A DNA stretch of 64,000 bases. Source: Gammaproteobacteria bacterium. Its GTDB lineage: Bacteria; Pseudomonadota; Gammaproteobacteria; Natronospirales; REEB76. Shown piece after piece: positions 19,528-28,648 of the stretch (position 1 is its first letter; every line of letters starts with the position of its first letter). The position numbers were made by a program, and so were the translations under genes. The DNA is taken from positions 56,479 through 120,478 of the forward strand of contig DASVOS010000003.1 in the NCBI GenBank assembly GCA_036383255.1, in the 5' to 3' direction. The notes under the pieces are model-generated. The model saw only the letters and a program-made list of their open reading frames with translations. It made no database searches and was not told the origin of the DNA.

Positions 19528-19649
19528 GATTGGACACAGGGTCTGCAACGGAAGCGTCAGTGCAGACCGGGCTGGGGGCCGCTTTGTGAGGGGCGGTTCC
19601 TATTCAAAGTCGAAGAAATGCCCACATATTCATGGAGGCTGAGTCGTTG

Positions 19650-21797
19650 ATGAACACCGTGCTGAAGCCGGCCCCCGCGGCCGTCACCGAGATCCAAGTG
19701 CAAGAAGCCTCCTCCGACATCTGGGACAAGAAGTACCGTCTCAAGGCCAAGGACGGGACCATCATCGACCACGAGGTGGACGACACCTGGAAGCGGGTCG
19801 CCAAGGCCCTCTCCGACGTAGAGGCTCCCGAGAAGCGCGCCGAGTGGAACGAGAAGTTCCTGTGGGCGCTGCGCAACGGCGCCATCCCGGCCGGCCGCGT
19901 CACCTCCAACGCCGGCGCCCTCGAGCACAAGCCCGCCACCAGCACCATCAACTGCACCGTGTCCGGCACCATCCGCGACTCGATGGACGACATCCTGAAC
20001 AAGGTCCACGAGGCGGGCCTCACCCTCAAGGCCGGCTGCGGCATCGGCTATGAGTTCTCCACCCTGCGCCCCCGCGGCGCGTACGTGGCCGGCGCCGGCG
20101 CCTACACCTCCGGCCCCATGTCGTTCATGGATATCTACGACAAGATGTGCTTCACCGTGTCCTCGGCGGGCGGCCGCCGCGGCGCCCAGATGGGCACCTT
20201 CGAGGTAGGGCACCCGGACGTCACCGACTTCGTGCGCGCCAAGCGCGAAGACGGCCGCCTGCGCCAGTTCAACCTCTCGCTCCTGGTCACCAGGGACTTC
20301 ATGGAAGCGGTGAAGGCGGACGGCGAGTGGCAGCTCGTGTTCCCGCTGGACAAGAAGGAAGCCGAGAGCGGCGACATCGACCTCAAGGATCCCACCAAGG
20401 TGGTGTGGCGCGAGTGGCCGACCACCGTCAACTACCTGGTGGACGAGCAGGGCCTCGTCGCCTGCCGCATCTACAAGACCATCCACGCCCGCAGGCTGTG
20501 GGACCTCATCATGGCCTCCACCTATGACTTCGCGGAGCCCGGCTTCGTGCTCATAGACAAGGTCAACGAGATGAACAACAACTGGTGGTGCGAGAACATC
20601 CGCGCCACCAACCCCTGCGGCGAGCAGCCGCTGCCGCCCTACGGCTCCTGCCTGTTGGGCAGCGTGAACCTCACCAAGTTCGTGCTGGAGCCCTTCACGC
20701 CGAATGCCCGCTTCGACTGGGACCAGTACCGCGAGGTGGTCAAGGTCTTCACCCGCATGCTGGACAACGTGGTGGAGATCAACGGCCTGCCCCTCGAGCA
20801 GCAGCGCAACGAGATCAACCGCAAGCGCCGCCACGGCATGGGCTACCTGGGGCTGGGTTCCACCATCACCATGCTGGGCTGGAAGTACGGCTCGCTGGAA
20901 TCCGTGAAGTTCACGGAAGACGTCTCCCGCGAGATGGCCATCGCCGGCTGGGAAGAGGCCCTCGAGCTCTCCAAGGAGAAGGGCCCCGCCCCCATCATGG
21001 TGGAGGAGTTCACCGTCACCGCCGACATGCTGAGGAAGCGCCCCGAGATGGCGCAGGACGGCTGGAAGGTGGGCGACAAGATCAAGGGCCGCGAGCTGCA
21101 CGCCAACTACAGCCGCTACATGCAGCGGGTGGCGGAAGTGGCGCCGGACCTGGTGGATGCGCTCGCCGCCCATGGCGCGCGCTTCACGCACCACAGCTCC
21201 ATCGCGCCCACGGGCACCATCTCCCTGTCGCTGGCCAACAACGCCAGCAACGGCATCGAGCCCAGCTTCGCGCACCACTACTTCCGCAACGTGATCCGCC
21301 CCGGCAAGAAGTCCAAGGAGAAAGTGGACGTCTACTCCTTCGAGCTGCTGGCCTACCGCGAGCTGATCAACCCGAAGGCCATGCCTAACTCCGAGAAGGC
21401 GGACGAGAAGCTGCCGGAGTACTTCATCACCGCGGAGAACATCACCCCCAAGGAGCACGTGGACATCCAGGCCGCGGCCCAGAAGTGGATCGACTCCTCC
21501 ATCTCCAAGACCGCGAACGTGCCCACGGACTACCCGTACGAGCAGTTCAAGGACATCTATCTCTACGCCTACGAGCAGGGCCTCAAGGGCTGCACCACCT
21601 TCCGCTTCAACCCGGAGGCGTTCCAGGGCGTGCTGGTGAAGGAGCAGGACCTCAAGAACACCGTGTACAAGTTCACCCTCGAGGACGGCACCGTCGTCGA
21701 GGCGCGGGGCGACCAGGAGATCGAGTATGACGGCGAGAAGCATACCGCCGCCAACCTGTACGACGCTCTCAAAGAGGGCTACTACGGTAAGTTCTGA
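19650..21797 (+). CDS. nrdJ: adenosylcobalamin-dependent ribonucleotide reductase, catalytic part
   Basis: 715 residues from ATG 19650, preferred because GGAGG lies eleven bases before it (an ATG at 19632 is also in frame). It reduces ribonucleotides to deoxyribonucleotides using a cobalamin radical. The ten-stranded barrel motifs are visible: STINCTVSGT (first redox Cys), NPCGEQPLPPYGSCLLGSVNL (radical loop, NPCGEQ), IAPTGTISL and GCTTFRFNP. The usual C-terminal cysteine tail is missing and is supplied by a separate gene at 22404, the NrdJa/NrdJb split known from Pseudomonas aeruginosa. Confidence 0.93.
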   Translation: MNTVLKPAPAAVTEIQVQEASSDIWDKKYRLKAKDGTIIDHEVDDTWKRVAKALSDVEAPEKRAEWNEKFLWALRNGAIPAGRVTSNAGALEHKPATSTINCTVSGTIRDSMDDILNKVHEAGLTLKAGCGIGYEFSTLRPRGAYVAGAGAYTSGPMSFMDIYDKMCFTVSSAGGRRGAQMGTFEVGHPDVTDFVRAKREDGRLRQFNLSLLVTRDFMEAVKADGEWQLVFPLDKKEAESGDIDLKDPTKVVWREWPTTVNYLVDEQGLVACRIYKTIHARRLWDLIMASTYDFAEPGFVLIDKVNEMNNNWWCENIRATNPCGEQPLPPYGSCLLGSVNLTKFVLEPFTPNARFDWDQYREVVKVFTRMLDNVVEINGLPLEQQRNEINRKRRHGMGYLGLGSTITMLGWKYGSLESVKFTEDVSREMAIAGWEEALELSKEKGPAPIMVEEFTVTADMLRKRPEMAQDGWKVGDKIKGRELHANYSRYMQRVAEVAPDLVDALAAHGARFTHHSSIAPTGTISLSLANNASNGIEPSFAHHYFRNVIRPGKKSKEKVDVYSFELLAYRELINPKAMPNSEKADEKLPEYFITAENITPKEHVDIQAAAQKWIDSSISKTANVPTDYPYEQFKDIYLYAYEQGLKGCTTFRFNPEAFQGVLVKEQDLKNTVYKFTLEDGTVVEARGDQEIEYDGEKHTAANLYDALKEGYYGKF

Positions 21798-22005
21798 GGA
21801 ATAAGAAGGTTTTGTTGGAGGTGAAGCAAGGAACGCTGTGAGCGTGTATTGGTTGCCAGGGATGCAGGCAGTACGGAGACGCAAACAGCTTTTAAGGTTC
21901 CGGCGTCCCGCGAGGGACGTTACCGGGAGACCGGGAGGGGTCGGGCGGCCGGTAAAGCCGCTCGATCTATTTAAGACCGGAGACGCATTTTTAGAGGTGG
22001 AGAGC
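21798..22005. other. spacer between nrdJa and the monooxygenase-like gene
   Basis: 208 bases with no convincing gene. An open frame from GTG 21838 joins the next gene in frame but shows basic, low-quality sequence without family similarity. A small hairpin CGTCCC-GCGA-GGGACG lies at 21904-21919. Confidence 0.4.
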
Positions 22006-22347
22006 GTGAGCGAGCAAAGTGCCGGCAAGATGCCACTGCCGCCGTACTACGTGGCCATCTTCACCTCGCGGCTCAACTCCAACCCGGCGGGCTACGCCGA
22101 GATGGCGGAGCGCATGGCCGAGCTCGCCGCCCAGCAGCCGGGCTACCTGGGCGCCGAGAGCGTGAGGGACGCGGATGGCCTGGGCATCACCGTCTCCTAC
22201 TGGAAGGACGAGCAGTCCATCCGGAACTGGAAGCGCGAGTCGGAGCACCGGGAGGCCCAGGAGACGGGCCGCAAGCAGTGGTACCAGTCCTACCAGCTGC
22301 GCATCGCCAGGGTGGAACGGGCTTACGGGTACGAAGCCCCCAAGTGA
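22006..22347 (+). CDS. antibiotic biosynthesis monooxygenase-domain protein
   Basis: 113 residues from GTG 22006. YYVAIFTSRLNSNPAGYAEMAERM, QQPGYLGAESVRD and the GITVSYWKDEQSIRNWKRESEHREAQ strand-helix pair are characteristic of ABM-fold proteins, dimeric ferredoxin-like barrels that include quinone monooxygenases and haem-degrading enzymes. Substrate unknown. It is inserted between the two ribonucleotide reductase genes, all three on the same strand, so it may be cotranscribed with them. Residues upstream to 21838 are in frame but not family-like. Confidence 0.7.
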   Translation: MSEQSAGKMPLPPYYVAIFTSRLNSNPAGYAEMAERMAELAAQQPGYLGAESVRDADGLGITVSYWKDEQSIRNWKRESEHREAQETGRKQWYQSYQLRIARVERAYGYEAPK

Positions 22348-22403
22348 CATGTCGGCAGGCGCATAGAGCGGTTGCCTATACTTAAGAGACAGAGGTCAGG
22401 AAC

Positions 22404-23180
22404 ATGAGCAGCATAAAAATAGAGAAGAAGATTACCCGCTACGCGGTGCAAAAGCCCGAGGAAGTGGCGGTGAAGCAGGACGCCGAAGCCAAGCAGGCCG
22501 AGAACAAGGCCGCGGCCCTCGCGCTGTCCTCCAAGCCCGTGGAGAAGATCGTCACCGAGCGGGCCGAGAAGAAGCACAAGGCGGAAGTCATCCGCATGCA
22601 CGAGGCCCTGGAGCGCCCCGAGCTCCTCATCGGCAGCACCTACAAGGTGAAGACGCCGGTCTCGGACCATGCCATGTACATCACCATCAACGACATCATC
22701 CTGAACGAGGGCACGCCCTACGAGCAGCGCCGCCCGTTCGAGATCTTCATCAACTCCAAGAACCTGGACCACTTCCAGTGGATCGTGGCCCTGACGCGCA
22801 TCATCAGCGCCGTGTTCCGCAAGGGCGGCGACGTGGCGTTCCTGGTGGAGGAGATGAAGGCGGTGTTCGACCCGCGCGGCGGCTACTGGAAGCCGGGCGG
22901 CAAGTTCATGCCCTCGCTCATCGCCGAGATCGGCGACGTCATCGAGAAGCACCTGGTCTCCATCGGCCTCATGCACAAGGAAGGCCTGGACGACCACCAG
23001 AAGAAGCTCATCGCCCAGAAGCGCGCCGAGTTCGAGGCGGCGGCGAAGCAGACCGATGCCTTCGCGGACTCCAAGTTCCCCGCCGGCGCGCAGCTGTGCC
23101 AGAAGTGCAGCACCGCGGCGGTGGTGATGATGGATGGGTGTATGACGTGTCTTAACTGCGGCGACTCAAAGTGCGGCTAA
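22404..23180 (+). CDS. nrdJb: ribonucleotide reductase NrdJb, TSCPD-type C-terminal subunit
   Basis: 258 residues with AGGTCAGGAAC upstream of the ATG. A charged, Lys/Glu-rich N-terminus (~1-75) is followed by a TSCPD-like domain (MYITINDIILNEGTPYE, IFINSKN, WIVALTRIISAVFRKGGD). The C-terminus has six cysteines, including LCQKCST and CMTCLNCGDSKCG, matching the redox tail or zinc-binding end of class II reductases. It would re-reduce the NrdJa active site and bind substrate together with it. Confidence 0.88.
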   Translation: MSSIKIEKKITRYAVQKPEEVAVKQDAEAKQAENKAAALALSSKPVEKIVTERAEKKHKAEVIRMHEALERPELLIGSTYKVKTPVSDHAMYITINDIILNEGTPYEQRRPFEIFINSKNLDHFQWIVALTRIISAVFRKGGDVAFLVEEMKAVFDPRGGYWKPGGKFMPSLIAEIGDVIEKHLVSIGLMHKEGLDDHQKKLIAQKRAEFEAAAKQTDAFADSKFPAGAQLCQKCSTAAVVMMDGCMTCLNCGDSKCG

Positions 23181-23265: not shown

Positions 23266-23330
23266 TGGCTTCGCCTCGTCTGCGGGCCGCGGGCTCGCTC
23301 TTAGTTATGAGAATAAAATCCGTGACGAAA

Positions 23331-23359
23331 GCAAAGAGGCGGCAAACCCGCCTCTTTGC
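23331..23359. terminator. strong hairpin at the left edge of the island
   Basis: GCAAAGAGGCGG-CAAAC-CCGCCTCTTTGC is a perfect 12-bp stem followed by TTATTTAATT. It can terminate nrdJ transcription and insulate the island operon that starts 24 bases later. Confidence 0.65.
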
Positions 23360-23383
23360 TTATTTAATTACGGAAATGCATTT

Positions 23384-24730
23384 ATGACGGGAAATGGCAA
23401 GCTGTGGAAAAGCATTTCTGTCCGCAAACTTTCTAGCGGCAAAGATCCCATAGCGGTTATTGAACAAAAGGCGAGAGCCTTGGCTCTGAGCGCCATGGAC
23501 AAAGGCTGGCGAGGACCGCCTTTTGATCCGTTTCAACTCGCTGATTACCTGGGCTTCTCGGTCATACCTACCGATTCTGTAAAAGATGCTCGCCTATTGA
23601 TGAAGGATTCCACCGTAAGGATTGAATACAACCCCAATAGAAACGCCGCAAGAATTCGCTATAGCATCGCCCACGAAATTGCACATACGCTTTTCCCTGA
23701 CTTTCAGGAGGCTGTGCGCAATAGATCAGACTCTGACGATGAAACAGTTGAGACGAAAGAACCTCCAACCGACTTGGAATTGGAGTTGCTGTGCAATCTA
23801 GCGGCGGCCGAACTTCTGATGCCGATAGGAGATATGCAGGATTTCTTGGACAAAGAAATTTCCATCAGAACAATATTGGATCTGAGGGAAAAATATAAAG
23901 TTTCAACAGAGGCGGTATTACTTCGTTACGTGAAGGCTACGAACAGCTCTTGCGCCGCATTTTCTGCCGCGCGCTCAACCTCTGACCCTGAGCTCTATAA
24001 GATTGATTATTTCATACCGTCAGTCTCATGGAATCACAAAGGGCTTTCTAAGAACACTGTGATTAGAAATAGCTCGGTTCTAGCCGAGTGCAAGGCAATC
24101 GGCTACACGGCGCACGGTGATGAATCATGGGCAGGCAGCGGCAGAAAGCAGCATATTGAAAGCGTCGCGATACCTCCGTATCCCGGCGATCAGTACCCAC
24201 GAATAGTGGGATTAATACAATCCATCAAAGCCGATACAAACATCGAGCAAATTGACTACGTCATAGGAAATGCATTGGACCCCCGAGGAAAGGGCAAGAA
24301 GGTAATTACCCATATCGTTAATGACGGAGCCTTGGCATGGGGGGGCCGAGGGTTTGCCATGCAACTAAAAAAGAAATTCCCTGTTGCTTATGCTGAATAC
24401 AGAGCCTTCACATCTTCAAACAGACAACTGCTCAAACTTGGAAATATTCACACCGGGCACGCATCCGCAGACGTCTTAATTGTGAGCATGATTGCGCAGA
24501 AAGGTTTCGGTGAAGGCGGCAGCAGGAGAGTCGTCTACGCTGCTTTGGCAGACTGTCTTCAAAAATTGGTCGATGTAGCGGGTATGAACTCGGCATCCGT
24601 CCACATGCCCAGAATAGGCACCGGACAGGCCGGCGGCGAATGGAATGTAATAGAACAGCTCATACATTCATCGTTAATCGCTTCTCATATTAGAACTCAC
24701 GTCTATGATTTGACGGTTCAGGGGGTTTAA
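23384..24730 (+). CDS. ImmA/IrrE metallopeptidase fused to a macro domain
   Basis: 448 residues. The N-terminal half carries the zinc motif HEIAH (97-101) with the later Glu134 and the NLAAAELLMP helix of ImmA/IrrE proteases, which cleave phage or SOS-type repressors. The C-terminal half (~275-440) is a macro domain: DYVIGNALDP, THIVNDGALAWGGRGFA, LIVSMIAQ and HMPRIGTGQAGGEW, the Poa1/Appr-1''-processing type that binds or hydrolyses ADP-ribose. No helix-turn-helix is present. First gene of an AT-rich five-gene operon; 33 bases precede the next start. The combination suggests a sensor, antitoxin or ADP-ribose eraser. Confidence 0.85.
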   Translation: MTGNGKLWKSISVRKLSSGKDPIAVIEQKARALALSAMDKGWRGPPFDPFQLADYLGFSVIPTDSVKDARLLMKDSTVRIEYNPNRNAARIRYSIAHEIAHTLFPDFQEAVRNRSDSDDETVETKEPPTDLELELLCNLAAAELLMPIGDMQDFLDKEISIRTILDLREKYKVSTEAVLLRYVKATNSSCAAFSAARSTSDPELYKIDYFIPSVSWNHKGLSKNTVIRNSSVLAECKAIGYTAHGDESWAGSGRKQHIESVAIPPYPGDQYPRIVGLIQSIKADTNIEQIDYVIGNALDPRGKGKKVITHIVNDGALAWGGRGFAMQLKKKFPVAYAEYRAFTSSNRQLLKLGNIHTGHASADVLIVSMIAQKGFGEGGSRRVVYAALADCLQKLVDVAGMNSASVHMPRIGTGQAGGEWNVIEQLIHSSLIASHIRTHVYDLTVQGV

Positions 24731-24763
24731 TCAACTAAACCAGGGGTTTAATAGGGCAGGGAT

Positions 24764-26368
24764 ATGCTTAAGCAAATCATCCTTCTTTCAGGGCCTGTGT
24801 CGTCGGGGAAAAGTAATCTCGCAAAACGACTGCGTGATCGACATGGCCTCACTGTCGTCAGTACGCGTGAGCTCATAAGGCAGCTAGAGCCCAACGTAGA
24901 ACCTGAGCGTAAAGCCATGCAGCGCGCAGGAGAGCGGCTTGATAGAAAGACTGAGGGTGGGTGGGTCGCCGAGGCAGTGGGGCGGCTGACAACGAATAAC
25001 TCAGATATTGAATATTTGGTTGTTGATGCTGTTCGAATTAGAAATCAAATTGCGGGGCTTCGTAGAGCTTATGGATCTAAAGTCATTCACATTCATCTAA
25101 CAGCCTCAGATGAAGTGCTCCGCGATAGATATTTAAAGAAACAAAGTCCAATACAAGAATTGCCAACATACGCTGATGTGCAAAAAAACGCGACAGAGCG
25201 AAATGTTAAGAAATTGGCAGAATTCGCTGACGTTGTTATAAACACTGACCGTTGTCTCCCCGAAGATATCTCCGTTCGCGCCGCAAGCCATATAGGAATA
25301 TATGGCCGTACGTTCTACCAAAACGTTGATGTACTAGTCGGCGGCCAATATGGAAGTGAAGGTAAGGGTCAAGTCGTCGCGTTTCTATCAAAGGAATATG
25401 ACTATCTAGTCAGAGTAGGTGGCCCTAATGCGGGGCACAAAGTCTGGGCATCAACAGGCTCTTACACATTCCACCATCTTCCTTCGGGGACTAGATCTTC
25501 TGACGCAAAGCTAATTATCGGAGCTGGAGCAGTACTGCGGCTTCCGGATTTACTCAAGGAAATAGCTGAGCATACCGTCAGACGAGACCGCTTGGTAATA
25601 GACCCAAATGCAATTCTAATAGAAGACGAAGACATAGTTATTGAAAAGGAGCTTGAGAAGTCAATTGGCTCGACTGCTCGTGGGGTGGGTGCAGCCACAG
25701 CGCGAAAAATCTTACGCACCATAGCAAAGCCAAAAGTGAGACTTGTTCGAAATGAGCCTGAGCTCGCCGCGTTTATGGGCGAGACTCGCGAAATATTGGA
25801 AAAAGCTCACTCCGAGGGAAAGAAGATATTGCTGGAAGGCACTCAAGGTACTGCCCTTAGCATTCATCATGGCATGTATCCTTATGTCACCTCTCGAGAT
25901 ACGACTGTAGCGGGGTGCTTAGCAGAGGCGGGAATTTCACCAGCCCGCGTACGAAAGATTGTGATGGTGTGTAGAACCTATCCAATAAGGGTGCAGAGCC
26001 CAGAGGATGGAACATCAGGGTATATGAGTCAGGAGATATCTTTGGAGGAGATTCATAAAAGATCTGGCATACCGCTCGAAGAGCTGCAAAGGATCGAAAA
26101 AACCTCTACCACTAACAAGAAACGGCGTATCGCGGAATTCGATTGGACGCTTATACGAATGGCGTCGTGTCTAAACTCTCCTACAGACATTGCTCTGACC
26201 TTTTCCGATTATTTCACCATTGAAAATCAGAAGGCTCGACGGTTTGAGCAGCTAAGCATAGAGACAATAAATTTTATTGAAGAATTAGAAAAGGTTGCAT
26301 CAGCTCCCGTTTCTCTAATATCCACGCGGTTCCACTCGCGCTCAATCATTGATAGAAGGATGTGGTAA
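24764..26368 (+). CDS. P-loop nucleotide kinase fused to PurZ-like adenylosuccinate synthetase
   Basis: 534 residues. Residues 1-175 form a nucleoside-monophosphate-kinase-like P-loop domain (Walker A GPVSSGKS, 10-17; LVVDAVRI, 85-92). Residues ~185-534 align with adenylosuccinate synthetase: GQYGSEGKGQ (194-203), RVGGPNAGHK (217-226, His225), GSTARGVG (302-309), EGTQGTALSIHHGMYPYVTS and TSTTNKKRR (447-455). Ser198 occupies the place of the catalytic Asp of PurA (GDEGKG). As I recall, that change marks phage PurZ, which acts on dGMP to give 2-amino-dAMP. At ~350 residues the domain is shorter than PurA (~430), again like PurZ. Product inferred only. Confidence 0.8.
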   Translation: MLKQIILLSGPVSSGKSNLAKRLRDRHGLTVVSTRELIRQLEPNVEPERKAMQRAGERLDRKTEGGWVAEAVGRLTTNNSDIEYLVVDAVRIRNQIAGLRRAYGSKVIHIHLTASDEVLRDRYLKKQSPIQELPTYADVQKNATERNVKKLAEFADVVINTDRCLPEDISVRAASHIGIYGRTFYQNVDVLVGGQYGSEGKGQVVAFLSKEYDYLVRVGGPNAGHKVWASTGSYTFHHLPSGTRSSDAKLIIGAGAVLRLPDLLKEIAEHTVRRDRLVIDPNAILIEDEDIVIEKELEKSIGSTARGVGAATARKILRTIAKPKVRLVRNEPELAAFMGETREILEKAHSEGKKILLEGTQGTALSIHHGMYPYVTSRDTTVAGCLAEAGISPARVRKIVMVCRTYPIRVQSPEDGTSGYMSQEISLEEIHKRSGIPLEELQRIEKTSTTNKKRRIAEFDWTLIRMASCLNSPTDIALTFSDYFTIENQKARRFEQLSIETINFIEELEKVASAPVSLISTRFHSRSIIDRRMW

Positions 26369-27031
26369 GTGCCGATATCGCAAGAAGAGTTTGTTGCAGC
26401 TTTTCCAAAGCTCTATCACATGGCTCACAAGGACAGTTGGCCATCGATACGCAAGCACGGCTTGCTCAGTACAACTGCTTTGCTTGATTTGTTTGGAATC
26501 GAGGGGGGGCCTAGAAAAGACATCGAGTCTAAACATCGCGCTGAATATATAAAAATCGAGAGCCCAAAATACGGCGTCGCGATGATACGAGACCAAAAAC
26601 CCATGAGCGATTCTGGCCTGGCGCGGTGCCTTGAGGACGGTCTTACGCCAACGAAGTGGTACCACATCCTGAATGGCAGGGTATTTATGTGGACATCTAT
26701 GGAACGACTAGAAACCTTGATGTCGGCAAGGTCCTACAAGAAAGACAAGCACCTTGTACTAGTGTTCGATTCAAAAAGGTTGATGGAGAAGCATTGGAAG
26801 TCGGTGACATTTTGCGCTATGAACAGCGGATGTACGACACCATTTGCTCACCCTCGCGGCAAGACCACGTTTATGCCTCCAGAAAAGTACCCTTACGCCG
26901 AGAATAGAAGGCGAAAGGGAAGAAGAGACGCAATCGTCGAAGTGGCGGTAGTGGGAGGCATGTCGGATATCGAGAACTGCCTAGTTGATCGACAAGTAAT
27001 TTCATATGGTCAAATCAAGTCACTAAAGTGA
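26369..27031 (+). CDS. ADP-ribosyltransferase-like protein, possible DarT-type toxin
   Basis: 220 residues; GTG start directly after the preceding TAA. LYHMAHKDSWPSIRKHGLLST (15-35) resembles the NAD-binding start of DarT/KptA-type ADP-ribosyltransferases (YH..., SIxxxGL). RVFMW (about 104) and the late acidic strand DAIVEVAVV could supply the catalytic Glu region. It belongs to an uncharacterised family I cannot name with certainty. The macro domain two genes upstream makes a DarT/DarG-like toxin and antitoxin relation attractive. The stop overlaps the next GTG (GTGA). Confidence 0.6.
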   Translation: MPISQEEFVAAFPKLYHMAHKDSWPSIRKHGLLSTTALLDLFGIEGGPRKDIESKHRAEYIKIESPKYGVAMIRDQKPMSDSGLARCLEDGLTPTKWYHILNGRVFMWTSMERLETLMSARSYKKDKHLVLVFDSKRLMEKHWKSVTFCAMNSGCTTPFAHPRGKTTFMPPEKYPYAENRRRKGRRDAIVEVAVVGGMSDIENCLVDRQVISYGQIKSLK

Positions 27032-28020
27032 GCGTGACCGTAACCAGTAAGGAACTTGTTGAAAAATCAGTGAGGGCTGCCGTTTCATCGATTGAGCTCT
27101 ATAACAAGCCTGATTTCAACTATAGAGAGGAATCATTTGCCATCTTGATGTGCACAGCATGGGAACTGCTTCTTAAGGCGAAGAAACTAGCTGATAACAA
27201 AGAAGACTTTGAGTCAATTAGTGAAATTCGCAAGAGGCTCGACCCTGAATCTGGTCAGGAACTAGTACTTCGAAAGATGAATCGTAGCGGCAATCCTATG
27301 ACGCTAGGTCTAGGATTTCTTGCCACAAAGGCACTTGAAGAAAAGTGGGATGGCTACACAAAGGAGTGTCTCGCTAATACCGAGTTGCTTATGGAATTAA
27401 GAGATAATTCTGTTCATCTTGTTAATAACGATTTGGCTTTGTCACAACAGGTTTTAGGGCTCGGATTGGCATCGCTCAAAAACTACATGTCCCTTGCCAC
27501 GCGCTGGTTTGGCGTGGATTTCTCCAAATACAATTTCTATCTGATGCCAATGAGTTTCTATCACGGTTTTGAGGCGCTAGCAGCTGGGTCAATAACTCCA
27601 ATTACGGAACAGTCAAAGAGATTTCTGGACTATTTGGCGTCAGTAAGCAAAGAGCCCACCGAAGGCTCAGATCATTACGTTTCACTTGCCATAGAGACAA
27701 AGATTATAAAAGGCAAGGGAGCTGATGGAGTTTCGGTGCGTTGGACGTCCGATCTCGCGGCACCCGCTATGAGCGTTAAAGAGGAGTCACTACTCGAGCG
27801 ATACCCCTACGATACAGCGGATCTAGTTAAAAAGCTCAAAGAACGTTACTCAGACTTTAAGCAGGACAAAAATTTCCAGAAGTACAAGACCCCGTTGTTG
27901 GACGACGAGAAGTATTGCCGGAAAAGGCTATATAACCCTAAACGCCCAAAAAGTGGTTCTAAGAGTTTCTTCAGTTCAGAGGTCTTCAAGGTTTTCGATC
28001 AGTACTACACAAAAAAATGA
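27028..28020 (+). CDS. DUF3644 protein with HEPN-like motif
   Basis: 330 residues. VEKSVRAAVSSIELYNKPDFNYREESFAILMCTAWELLLKAK is a textbook DUF3644 N-terminus. ELRDNSVHLVNN places Arg125 and His130 in the R-x4-H arrangement of HEPN ribonucleases, and I believe DUF3644 has been grouped with HEPN. The C-terminal part (~255-330) is basic and could bind nucleic acid. DUF3644 genes are repeatedly seen in defence islands. GTG start overlaps the previous stop, so it is translationally coupled to the ADP-ribosyltransferase-like gene. Confidence 0.75.
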   Translation: MSVTVTSKELVEKSVRAAVSSIELYNKPDFNYREESFAILMCTAWELLLKAKKLADNKEDFESISEIRKRLDPESGQELVLRKMNRSGNPMTLGLGFLATKALEEKWDGYTKECLANTELLMELRDNSVHLVNNDLALSQQVLGLGLASLKNYMSLATRWFGVDFSKYNFYLMPMSFYHGFEALAAGSITPITEQSKRFLDYLASVSKEPTEGSDHYVSLAIETKIIKGKGADGVSVRWTSDLAAPAMSVKEESLLERYPYDTADLVKKLKERYSDFKQDKNFQKYKTPLLDDEKYCRKRLYNPKRPKSGSKSFFSSEVFKVFDQYYTKK

Positions 28021-28041
28021 TATTCGTTAAAAGGAGTCTGG

Positions 28042-28566
28042 TTGGACGAGAAAGAGCAGAATCACGTATATCAGCGAATTGGCGAATTCGTAGTATCTTT
28101 TCAATGGATTGAAAACAAGCTGCGCGAAATCGGTTGGTTTATTCTAGATCCGGCTAGAAAAAATTGGCCACCCCAGTCTCTACGTAACCTTACTTCTGCG
28201 GATCTATACGAGCAGGTAGAGGGGTTATTTCTCGAAGCTTTGCCTAAATGCAAATTGTCCGCTGAGCTTGAGAAAGACTTCAGATCTAGGTTCCTTCAGT
28301 CCAGACATCAATTTGCTTCGCTTCGAAGAGCGAGAAATAAGATTCTCCACTCCGCTTTTATTGAGCTAAAAGCTGGCAGAGAAGTTCAAGGAATATTACG
28401 AATAGATCCGAAAGGCGAAAGGGATGCGGAAACGGGAGAAATTCTCTTCAGTGATGAAATGCTTTCGGACAAGTCCTTTGAACAAGAACTTAACGATATG
28501 GCTCATCTCGGGGTCTTCTATGGCCGTTGCTATATGCAGCTTATTGCACGATTGCCAGCTGAGTAA
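28042..28566 (+). CDS. small helical protein with RNxxxH motif (HEPN-like)
   Basis: 174 residues, predicted all-helical. The TTG start is set by AAGGAG six to eight bases upstream. LRRARNKILHSAF contains Arg98-Asn-x3-His103, the HEPN catalytic signature, in a helix as expected; a preceding long amphipathic helix (FQWIENKLREIGWFIL) fits the fold. Family otherwise unrecognised. Last gene of the AT-rich operon, 21 bases after DUF3644. It may be the partner of the DUF3644 HEPN protein or a second RNase effector. Confidence 0.6.
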   Translation: MDEKEQNHVYQRIGEFVVSFQWIENKLREIGWFILDPARKNWPPQSLRNLTSADLYEQVEGLFLEALPKCKLSAELEKDFRSRFLQSRHQFASLRRARNKILHSAFIELKAGREVQGILRIDPKGERDAETGEILFSDEMLSDKSFEQELNDMAHLGVFYGRCYMQLIARLPAE

Positions 28567-28609
28567 CAGCTGTGTTGCGTAAAGCTAGTGTCTATTGCTC
28601 AATGAAGAT

Positions 28610-28648
28610 AAAGGGGTCAGAGCCCTTTACTTTGAATTCACGGAATTC
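28610..28648. repeat. possible mobile-element scar at the right edge of the island
   Basis: AAAGGG-GTCAGAG-CCCTTT (28610-28628) is followed by GAATTC-ACG-GAATTC (28634-28648). The GGGGTCAGAGCCC wording resembles sequences I associate with ends of REP-associated IS200-like transposase genes, but no transposase is present. About 200 bases between the island and the next gene hold nothing else. Confidence 0.4.

Follow-up and report, generated by a model that had tools for sequence, protein, structure and literature searches.

What would a nucleotide-building enzyme do beside a putative DNA-modifying toxin in a small foreign-looking operon? The question is raised by positions 23384-28566 of a 64,000-nucleotide stretch (the window) of contig DASVOS010000003.1 from a gammaproteobacterium (assembly GCA_036383255.1). 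Five co-directional open reading frames (ORFs) follow one another there on the + strand with gaps of 33, 0, -4, and 21 bases, as an earlier interpretation made from the letters alone (the sequence-only reading) had described. That reading took the five genes for one undescribed defence or toxin-antitoxin system, and our analysis supports it in part. Genes 1 to 3 make up a conserved unit of three, which is likely an anti-phage or toxin-antitoxin system. We tentatively propose that its kinase-PurZ fusion makes 2-aminoadenine (Z) nucleotides, that its DarT-like DUF7002 protein adds ADP-ribose, and that its protease-macro protein removes or restrains the mark. The proposal draws on features seen in the sequence: a recurring gene order, a PurZ-type active site, foreign composition, and the occurrence of the fusion in phage-like replication modules. 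The three genes and their parts are as follows.

23384..24730, + strand: gene 1, ImmA/IrrE (M78) zinc-protease domain with a C-terminal macro domain (Pfam, PADLOC models, solved structures)
24239-24715, + strand: macro domain of gene 1, residues ~286-444
24764..25309, + strand: N-terminal part of gene 2 (residues 1-182), P-loop kinase with an adenylate-kinase fold predicted by structure modelling
25319..26368, + strand: C-terminal part of gene 2 (residues 186-534), PurZ-type succino-2-aminodeoxyadenylate synthetase domain (active-site residues, trees, NCBIfam)
26369..27031, + strand: gene 3, DUF7002 (Pfam, 1.3e-66), predicted from its fold to be a DarT-like ADP-ribosyltransferase, GTG start

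A scan with an alignment of the gene 2 protein turned up relatives in 335 stretches. The 79 best loci were selected from these and, together with 6 plasmid loci (6 of the 8 full-length plasmid matches), make up the 85 loci compared here. One of them (L043) is absent from the ORF clustering and the residue counts, and the stretch of another (L070) starts 180 bases 5' of its gene, leaving the upstream neighbour out of range. A same-strand DUF7002 gene lies directly downstream of the fusion in 80 of the 85 loci, an M78-macro gene lies directly upstream in 60, and 57 loci carry genes 1 to 3 in the window's order. By profile search, DUF7002 is present anywhere in 83 of the 85 loci, the exceptions being L077 and L058 (whose stretch ends 47 bases past the fusion), and the M78-macro gene in 65, with another protein of ~456 amino acids in 12 of the remaining 20. 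The fusion gene spans 15 phyla, three of them archaeal, with all archaeal loci coming from metagenome bins; genes 1 to 3 in complete order span 12 phyla, two of them archaeal. All eight plasmid records with a full-length fusion have an adjacent DUF7002 gene. Such near-constant pairing in cellular loci suggests that Z synthesis is coupled to the DarT-like transferase.

Gene 2 matches the adenylosuccinate synthetase family (6.6e-59), and its active site is of the PurZ type: Ser198 stands where PurA has Asp13, His225 is retained, and a PIRV motif and Arg404 are present. Both the Ser at the PurA Asp13 site and the His equivalent to His41 occur in 85 of 85 alignable fusions (one row is gapped), and the motif GSEGKG occurs in all 10 fusions from virus-like contigs. 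In phylogenetic trees, the fusions group with phage PurZ, apart from PurA (66-row branch with Shimodaira-Hasegawa-like approximate likelihood ratio support [SH-aLRT] of 97; 69-row branch with support of 100 in a second tree). The trees were built by a quick method without bootstrap and with archaeal short-type PurA absent; the first holds 45 fusion rows, counts the window twice, and has a PurA-like row, L108, joining on a long branch. On active-site residues and trees, we rejected housekeeping PurA as the identity of the fusion, and the residues agree with the sequence-only reading, which had called gene 2 PurZ-like rather than PurA-like. We predict from these sequence features that gene 2 makes Z nucleotides from deoxyguanosine monophosphate (dGMP); its N-terminal part is predicted, by modelling, to have an AMP-kinase fold.

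The best contextual evidence for the Z-nucleotide step comes from virus-like contigs, where the fusion sits in replication and deoxynucleotide modules. A full-length fusion is present in 10 of the 38 loci on such contigs; three of the 10 have DUF7002, and two of these three loci are near-identical or identical to cellular loci. Six of the seven DUF7002-less loci were examined (L126 was omitted, its PurZ part being identical to that of L123). Size and position decided which of the 85 ORFs of at least 100 amino acids near these six were scanned: 10 with Pfam and 10 with PHROGs, the two sets overlapping in part. A family-A DNA polymerase lies near the fusion in L122 and L125, a polymerase, a DnaB helicase, and a primase in L123, and a helicase and a primase in L135. 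The gene directly following the fusion in L129 encodes a protein that combines nucleoside-deoxyribosyltransferase and MazG-like parts; for L120, the single ORF scanned gave no match. Published accounts of Z-phages describe PurZ alongside Pol I, MazG-type, and deoxyribosyltransferase-like enzymes (PMC12884076, PMC8342488). The IMG/VR contigs L122, L123, L125, L129, and L135 are candidate Z-genome phages with a fused PurZ.

For the gene 3 protein, DUF7002 is the sole family found up to an E value of 0.1; neither the DarT Pfam model (PF14487) nor any PADLOC model matches it, and searching the whole genome of the window with the DarT model gave no match. The predicted DUF7002 fold is that of DarT, with the conserved His and catalytic Glu (Glu191) positions present, in line with the earlier description of gene 3 as ADP-ribosyltransferase-like; the DUF7002 alignment covers 66 of 71 clustered genome loci and the window. 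We predict from the modelled fold that DUF7002 is a DarT-like transferase that adds ADP-ribose to nucleic acid or nucleotides. Gene 1 matches M78 (3.9e-10), and a HExxH-type motif is present in 52 of 55 gene 1 sequences, the window included (His97 and His101 in all 55, Glu98 in 54). Its ImmA/IrrE domain matches the PADLOC capP model (1.6e-22) and the CapP structure 7t5t (4e-4). The macro domain scores 0.0016 in Pfam, below the family cut-off, and 3.1e-11 with the PADLOC DarG model, which upholds the earlier comparison with DarG; the closest solved macro domains are 2fg1, 2afc, and 5e3b (1.5e-24 to 3.6e-21). The likeness to DarG is confined to this domain, since gene 1 reaches 33.2 bits with the curated DarG antitoxin model, whose cut-off is 250.

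How could these activities work together? PurZ would turn dGMP into succino-2-amino-dAMP, from which housekeeping PurB, encoded in the window's genome, would free the adenine analogue dZMP, and the attached AMP-type kinase would phosphorylate dZMP towards dZTP. Z may then enter fast-replicating DNA, such as that of a phage, because most polymerases make no distinction between A and Z (PMC8342488). The DarT-like enzyme would modify the 2-amino group common to guanine and Z, so that Z-marked DNA would be blocked, the macro domain would clean host DNA, and the ImmA/IrrE protease would set the threshold. Support is best for the synthesis of Z and least for the three steps that follow. A more specific version, in which a captured phage PurZ with its AMP-type kinase floods the infected cell with Z nucleotide and the transferase ADP-ribosylates Z-marked invader DNA while the protease-macro protein guards the host, strikes us as improbable; if true, mark-then-modify immunity would be seen for the first time, as would the use of base Z by cells.

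Several observations weigh against our proposal. Seven of the 10 full-length fusions on virus-like contigs are without DUF7002 in the stretch examined, and we therefore rejected a universal pairing of the two: it is a feature of cellular loci, not of the fusion, and is either a cellular addition or was lost in phages. Two of 10 plasmids also carry DUF7002 but no fusion. The fusions are nested inside phage PurZ only on unstarred branches (87 and 87; 91 in the second tree). The NCBIfam PurZ model matches gene 2 at 2.2e-62 with 210.9 bits, under its cut-off of 300, and is outscored by another adenylosuccinate synthetase model (274.2 bits, also under its own cut-off). The best solved relative is the archaeal-type PurA 5k7x (1.8e-47), ahead of the PurZ structures 6fm1 (8e-31) and 7odx (7e-26); in the alignment, 5k7x keeps Asp at the Asp13 site and is PurA-like at four of five diagnostic positions, and its type is absent from the trees. 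The aspartate-loop Thr of PurZ is present in 56 of 86 fusions, and 29 have the PurA-type Gly. Turning to gene 3, the Asn at the DarT base-contact position is shared by 5 of 9 ordinary DarT sequences and so does not fix the base, and cholera-toxin A1 chains come ahead of DarT1 by Foldseek E value, with DarT1 having the top TM-score among the matches listed. As for the HD- and MazG-class genes that accompany some loci (see below), among phage proteins they best match general deoxynucleotidases and MazG proteins, and the YfbR-like Pfam score of the HD gene is under the cut-off.

The unit could instead be a DarTG-like module, in which DUF7002 alone modifies nucleic acid, the kinase-PurZ protein is a sensor that turns dGMP, freed when a phage degrades host DNA, into a signal nucleotide, and the ImmA/IrrE protease responds by releasing the transferase. 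A DarT fold beside a macro domain, the co-direction of the three genes, and a CapP-like ImmA/IrrE domain all agree with such a design, CapP being a regulator of CBASS (cyclic oligonucleotide-based antiphage signalling system) operons. We nevertheless consider it rather unlikely, as profiles find no M78-macro gene in 20 of the 85 loci and an unrelated protein takes its place in 12. The same counts weaken the earlier suggestion that the protease-macro protein is the sensor: its gene is not directly upstream in 25 of the 85 loci and has no profile match in 20, whereas DUF7002 is found in 83.

Nucleotide depletion would make the PurZ-kinase a drain on dGMP and dGTP and the HD gene a drain on other deoxynucleotides, starving phage DNA synthesis, with DUF7002 as an independent second effector. 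The kinase domain is weakly like the PADLOC dCTPase (9.5e-6) and VakA (1.7e-5) models, and the alphaproteobacterial partner protein also adjoins anti-phage dGTPases; a merely draining PurZ, however, would have no need of a kinase part, and cellular loci keep DUF7002 as constantly as they keep the fusion. We give this possibility little credence. We are just as sceptical that Z shields the DNA of the mobile element that encodes the pathway against restriction, DUF7002 being an accessory transferase. Fusions without DUF7002 in virus-like replication modules would suit that role, as would the fusion with DUF7002 on plasmids and in three of the 10 virus-like loci (including the two that match cellular ones), but the three-gene form lies mostly on bacterial and archaeal contigs in its 12 phyla, without replication genes, for which no dedicated search was made.

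Comparison with known systems places the unit between two of them. Like DarTG (DarT1-NADAR and DarT2-DarG), it has a DarT-fold transferase with the His and Glu positions and an adjacent DarG-like macro domain; unlike DarTG, its transferase is unmatched by the DarT Pfam model, its macro domain is fused to an ImmA/IrrE protease, and its macro gene is dispensable, whereas the PurZ-kinase is nearly constant. DarTG systems are not known to include an enzyme of the PurZ-kinase type. With the phage Z-genome cluster (purZ with datZ, mazZ, or dutZ/dmtZ), it shares PurZ active-site residues, tree position, the same fusion beside replication and deoxynucleotide genes on virus-like contigs, and HD- or MazG-class helpers in some cellular loci, but it is chromosomal or plasmid-borne in bacteria and archaea, and its PurZ is fused to a kinase and partnered by an ADP-ribosyltransferase-like protein. 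Nucleotide-targeting defences (dCTP deaminase, dGTPase, and prokaryotic viperins) resemble it in their nucleotide enzyme, in the weak dCTPase- and VakA-model likeness of the kinase domain, and in sporadic, horizontal spread; here the enzyme is a base-building ligase, not a deaminase, hydrolase, or radical enzyme, and it has a transferase and a macro partner. CapP/CapH shares the ImmA/IrrE domain, which in our unit is fused to a macro domain; family scans recognised none of the five genes as a repressor. The three-gene unit is not a DarTG member by the models tested and probably not a phage Z-cluster, though it borrows from both.

Some cellular loci deviate from the window's arrangement. In alphaproteobacterial loci, the ~456-amino-acid protein (alignment A3) stands in place of gene 1, mostly with an HD deoxynucleotidase-like gene; it has no Pfam match and no convincing solved relative. 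On two rhizobial plasmids (L171 4160-10033 and L172 6929-13087), this protein lies beside an anti-phage dGTPase, a PfkB kinase, and a QueC-like gene, and these clusters are possibly another nucleotide-centred defence system. HD-class genes occur in 10 of the 85 loci by clustering (11 with L007) and MazG-class genes in five, a MazG-like gene being added in five actinobacterial loci. The dATPase of phage S-2L is of the HD class. In that phage, the dATPase and a MazG-type dGTPase are reported to serve PurZ, and the three together are toxic to E. coli (PMC8342488). The helpers thus belong to the same enzyme classes as those of phages, and are only candidates for DatZ and MazZ; family scans identify none of the five window genes as a DatZ-type dATPase, a MazZ-type dGTPase, or a Z-type polymerase.

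In 11 loci, the operon includes a separate gene for a relative (~190 amino acids) of the fused kinase domain, placed after DUF7002 in L053, L064, L069, L070, L072, L074, L080, L081, and L083 and before the fusion in L048 and L077. Nine Chloroflexota or archaeal loci (L029, L033, L040, L041, L044, L051, L061, L062, and L065) have a family of ~240-350 amino acids after the core, and the one member scanned (from L044) has no Pfam match. An archaeal contig (L032 7001-12345) carries two convergent kinase-PurZ genes, one with DUF7002 and the other with an M78-macro gene. Pseudomonas sp. TH43 (G102, L107) has a second, diverged copy of the fusion, which is preceded by an additional kinase-like stretch and has a DUF7002 of its own.

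The two remaining genes of the block are:

27028..28020, + strand: gene 4, DUF3644 (1e-43; PADLOC candidate PDC-S19), HEPN-type motif RDNSVH
28042..28566, + strand: gene 5, no family matched, HEPN-type motif RNKILH, TTG start

Both motifs fit R[ND]x3H, described as a HEPN-type motif (PMC3710099). Co-occurrence in other genomes, found for genes 1 to 3 in those 57 loci, does not extend to this pair: DUF3644 is present in 3 of the 85 related loci and gene 5 in one (L033), and plasmids have gene 4 in three records and gene 5 in none. We thus rejected the five-gene system in favour of a conserved unit of three, and the HEPN RNases proposed as effectors fall outside the core. Genes 4 and 5 are likely separate HEPN-motif genes that share the island as passengers. 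Family scans match none of the five genes to a nucleotidyltransferase family, so the HEPN/MNT pairing is absent, and the gene combination lies outside both DarTG and HEPN/MNT, as the sequence-only reading had held.

The composition of the block is foreign. Its GC content is 0.465, compared with 0.669 and 0.655 in the left and right flanks and 0.637-0.699 in 485 overlapping segments as long as the block, taken from the rest of the 64 kb, all of which lie above it. Likewise, GC content at third codon positions is 0.41-0.53 in the block genes and 0.86-0.95 in three neighbouring genes, which agrees with the earlier claim that the block is AT-richer than its surroundings. At E 1e-60, the gene 2 protein was found in one of the 95 genomes searched, the window's own, and DUF7002 was found in one of 235 genomes (one phylum set), the genome used as the centre. 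Given this composition and the single occurrence of gene 2, the block was most likely acquired horizontally. Its left edge carries one further feature.

23329..23361, + strand: terminator-like hairpin with perfect 14-base arms and a 5-nt loop, behind the upstream gene and before the block

An empty site was not shown, as three relatives keep the upstream gene (84-86% identity), with the downstream gene outside the stretch compared. Near the right edge lies a palindrome (28609-28629); the genome has a single copy of a 21-base string that includes most of this palindrome, even with one mismatch allowed. Upstream of the block, a ribonucleotide reductase (19632-23180) is apparently split: a 721-amino-acid ORF comes first, then a small ORF of the ABM type (21838-22347), and the TSCPD part is a gene of its own (22404-23180), matching the C terminus of the B12-dependent ribonucleotide reductase model.

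Sparse horizontal spread and a DarT-like toxin candidate support a role in defence, and with the composition they bear out the foreign, defence-like operon of the sequence-only reading; the restriction-modification and integrase genes among the neighbours of the loci add a suggestive point. A set of 121 neighbour proteins, from a pool of 522 at 77 loci, matched 168 PADLOC families at 1e-15, and a set of 121 control proteins matched 60. The controls come from a pool of 158 proteins in 20 stretches of eight of the same genomes, the families overlap, and many of the control matches listed are generic kinases; the neighbours' Pfam matches, which have no Pfam control, are mostly ordinary genes. Enrichment of defence islands around the loci is suggestive only. 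A literature search (without preprints and most subscription papers) returned no paper on DUF7002 and none tying an adenylosuccinate synthetase to macro/ADP-ribosyltransferase defence, anti-phage defence, or DarTG, and PurZ with ADP-ribosyl gave papers that were unrelated, as judged by listing; papers did come up on 2-aminoadenine together with antiphage defence, and on DUF3644. An earlier description of the unit elsewhere is possible.

Without its two passenger genes, the system is more coherent than the earlier reading had it. Should the mark-then-modify idea fail, phage challenge would still have a concrete target in this three-gene order, which recurs across 12 phyla and whose third protein has no PADLOC match. 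If our proposal is true, the 2-aminoadenine nucleotide pathway known from phages would have a cellular branch, widespread among bacteria and archaea and linked to a new family of DarT-like transferases that Pfam lists as DUF7002 without a function and that would gain a testable activity. It would link base-modified nucleotides to ADP-ribosylation within one operon, and it would point to phages that carry the kinase-PurZ fusion in their replication modules and to an enzyme with which 2-aminoadenine nucleotides might be produced in vivo.

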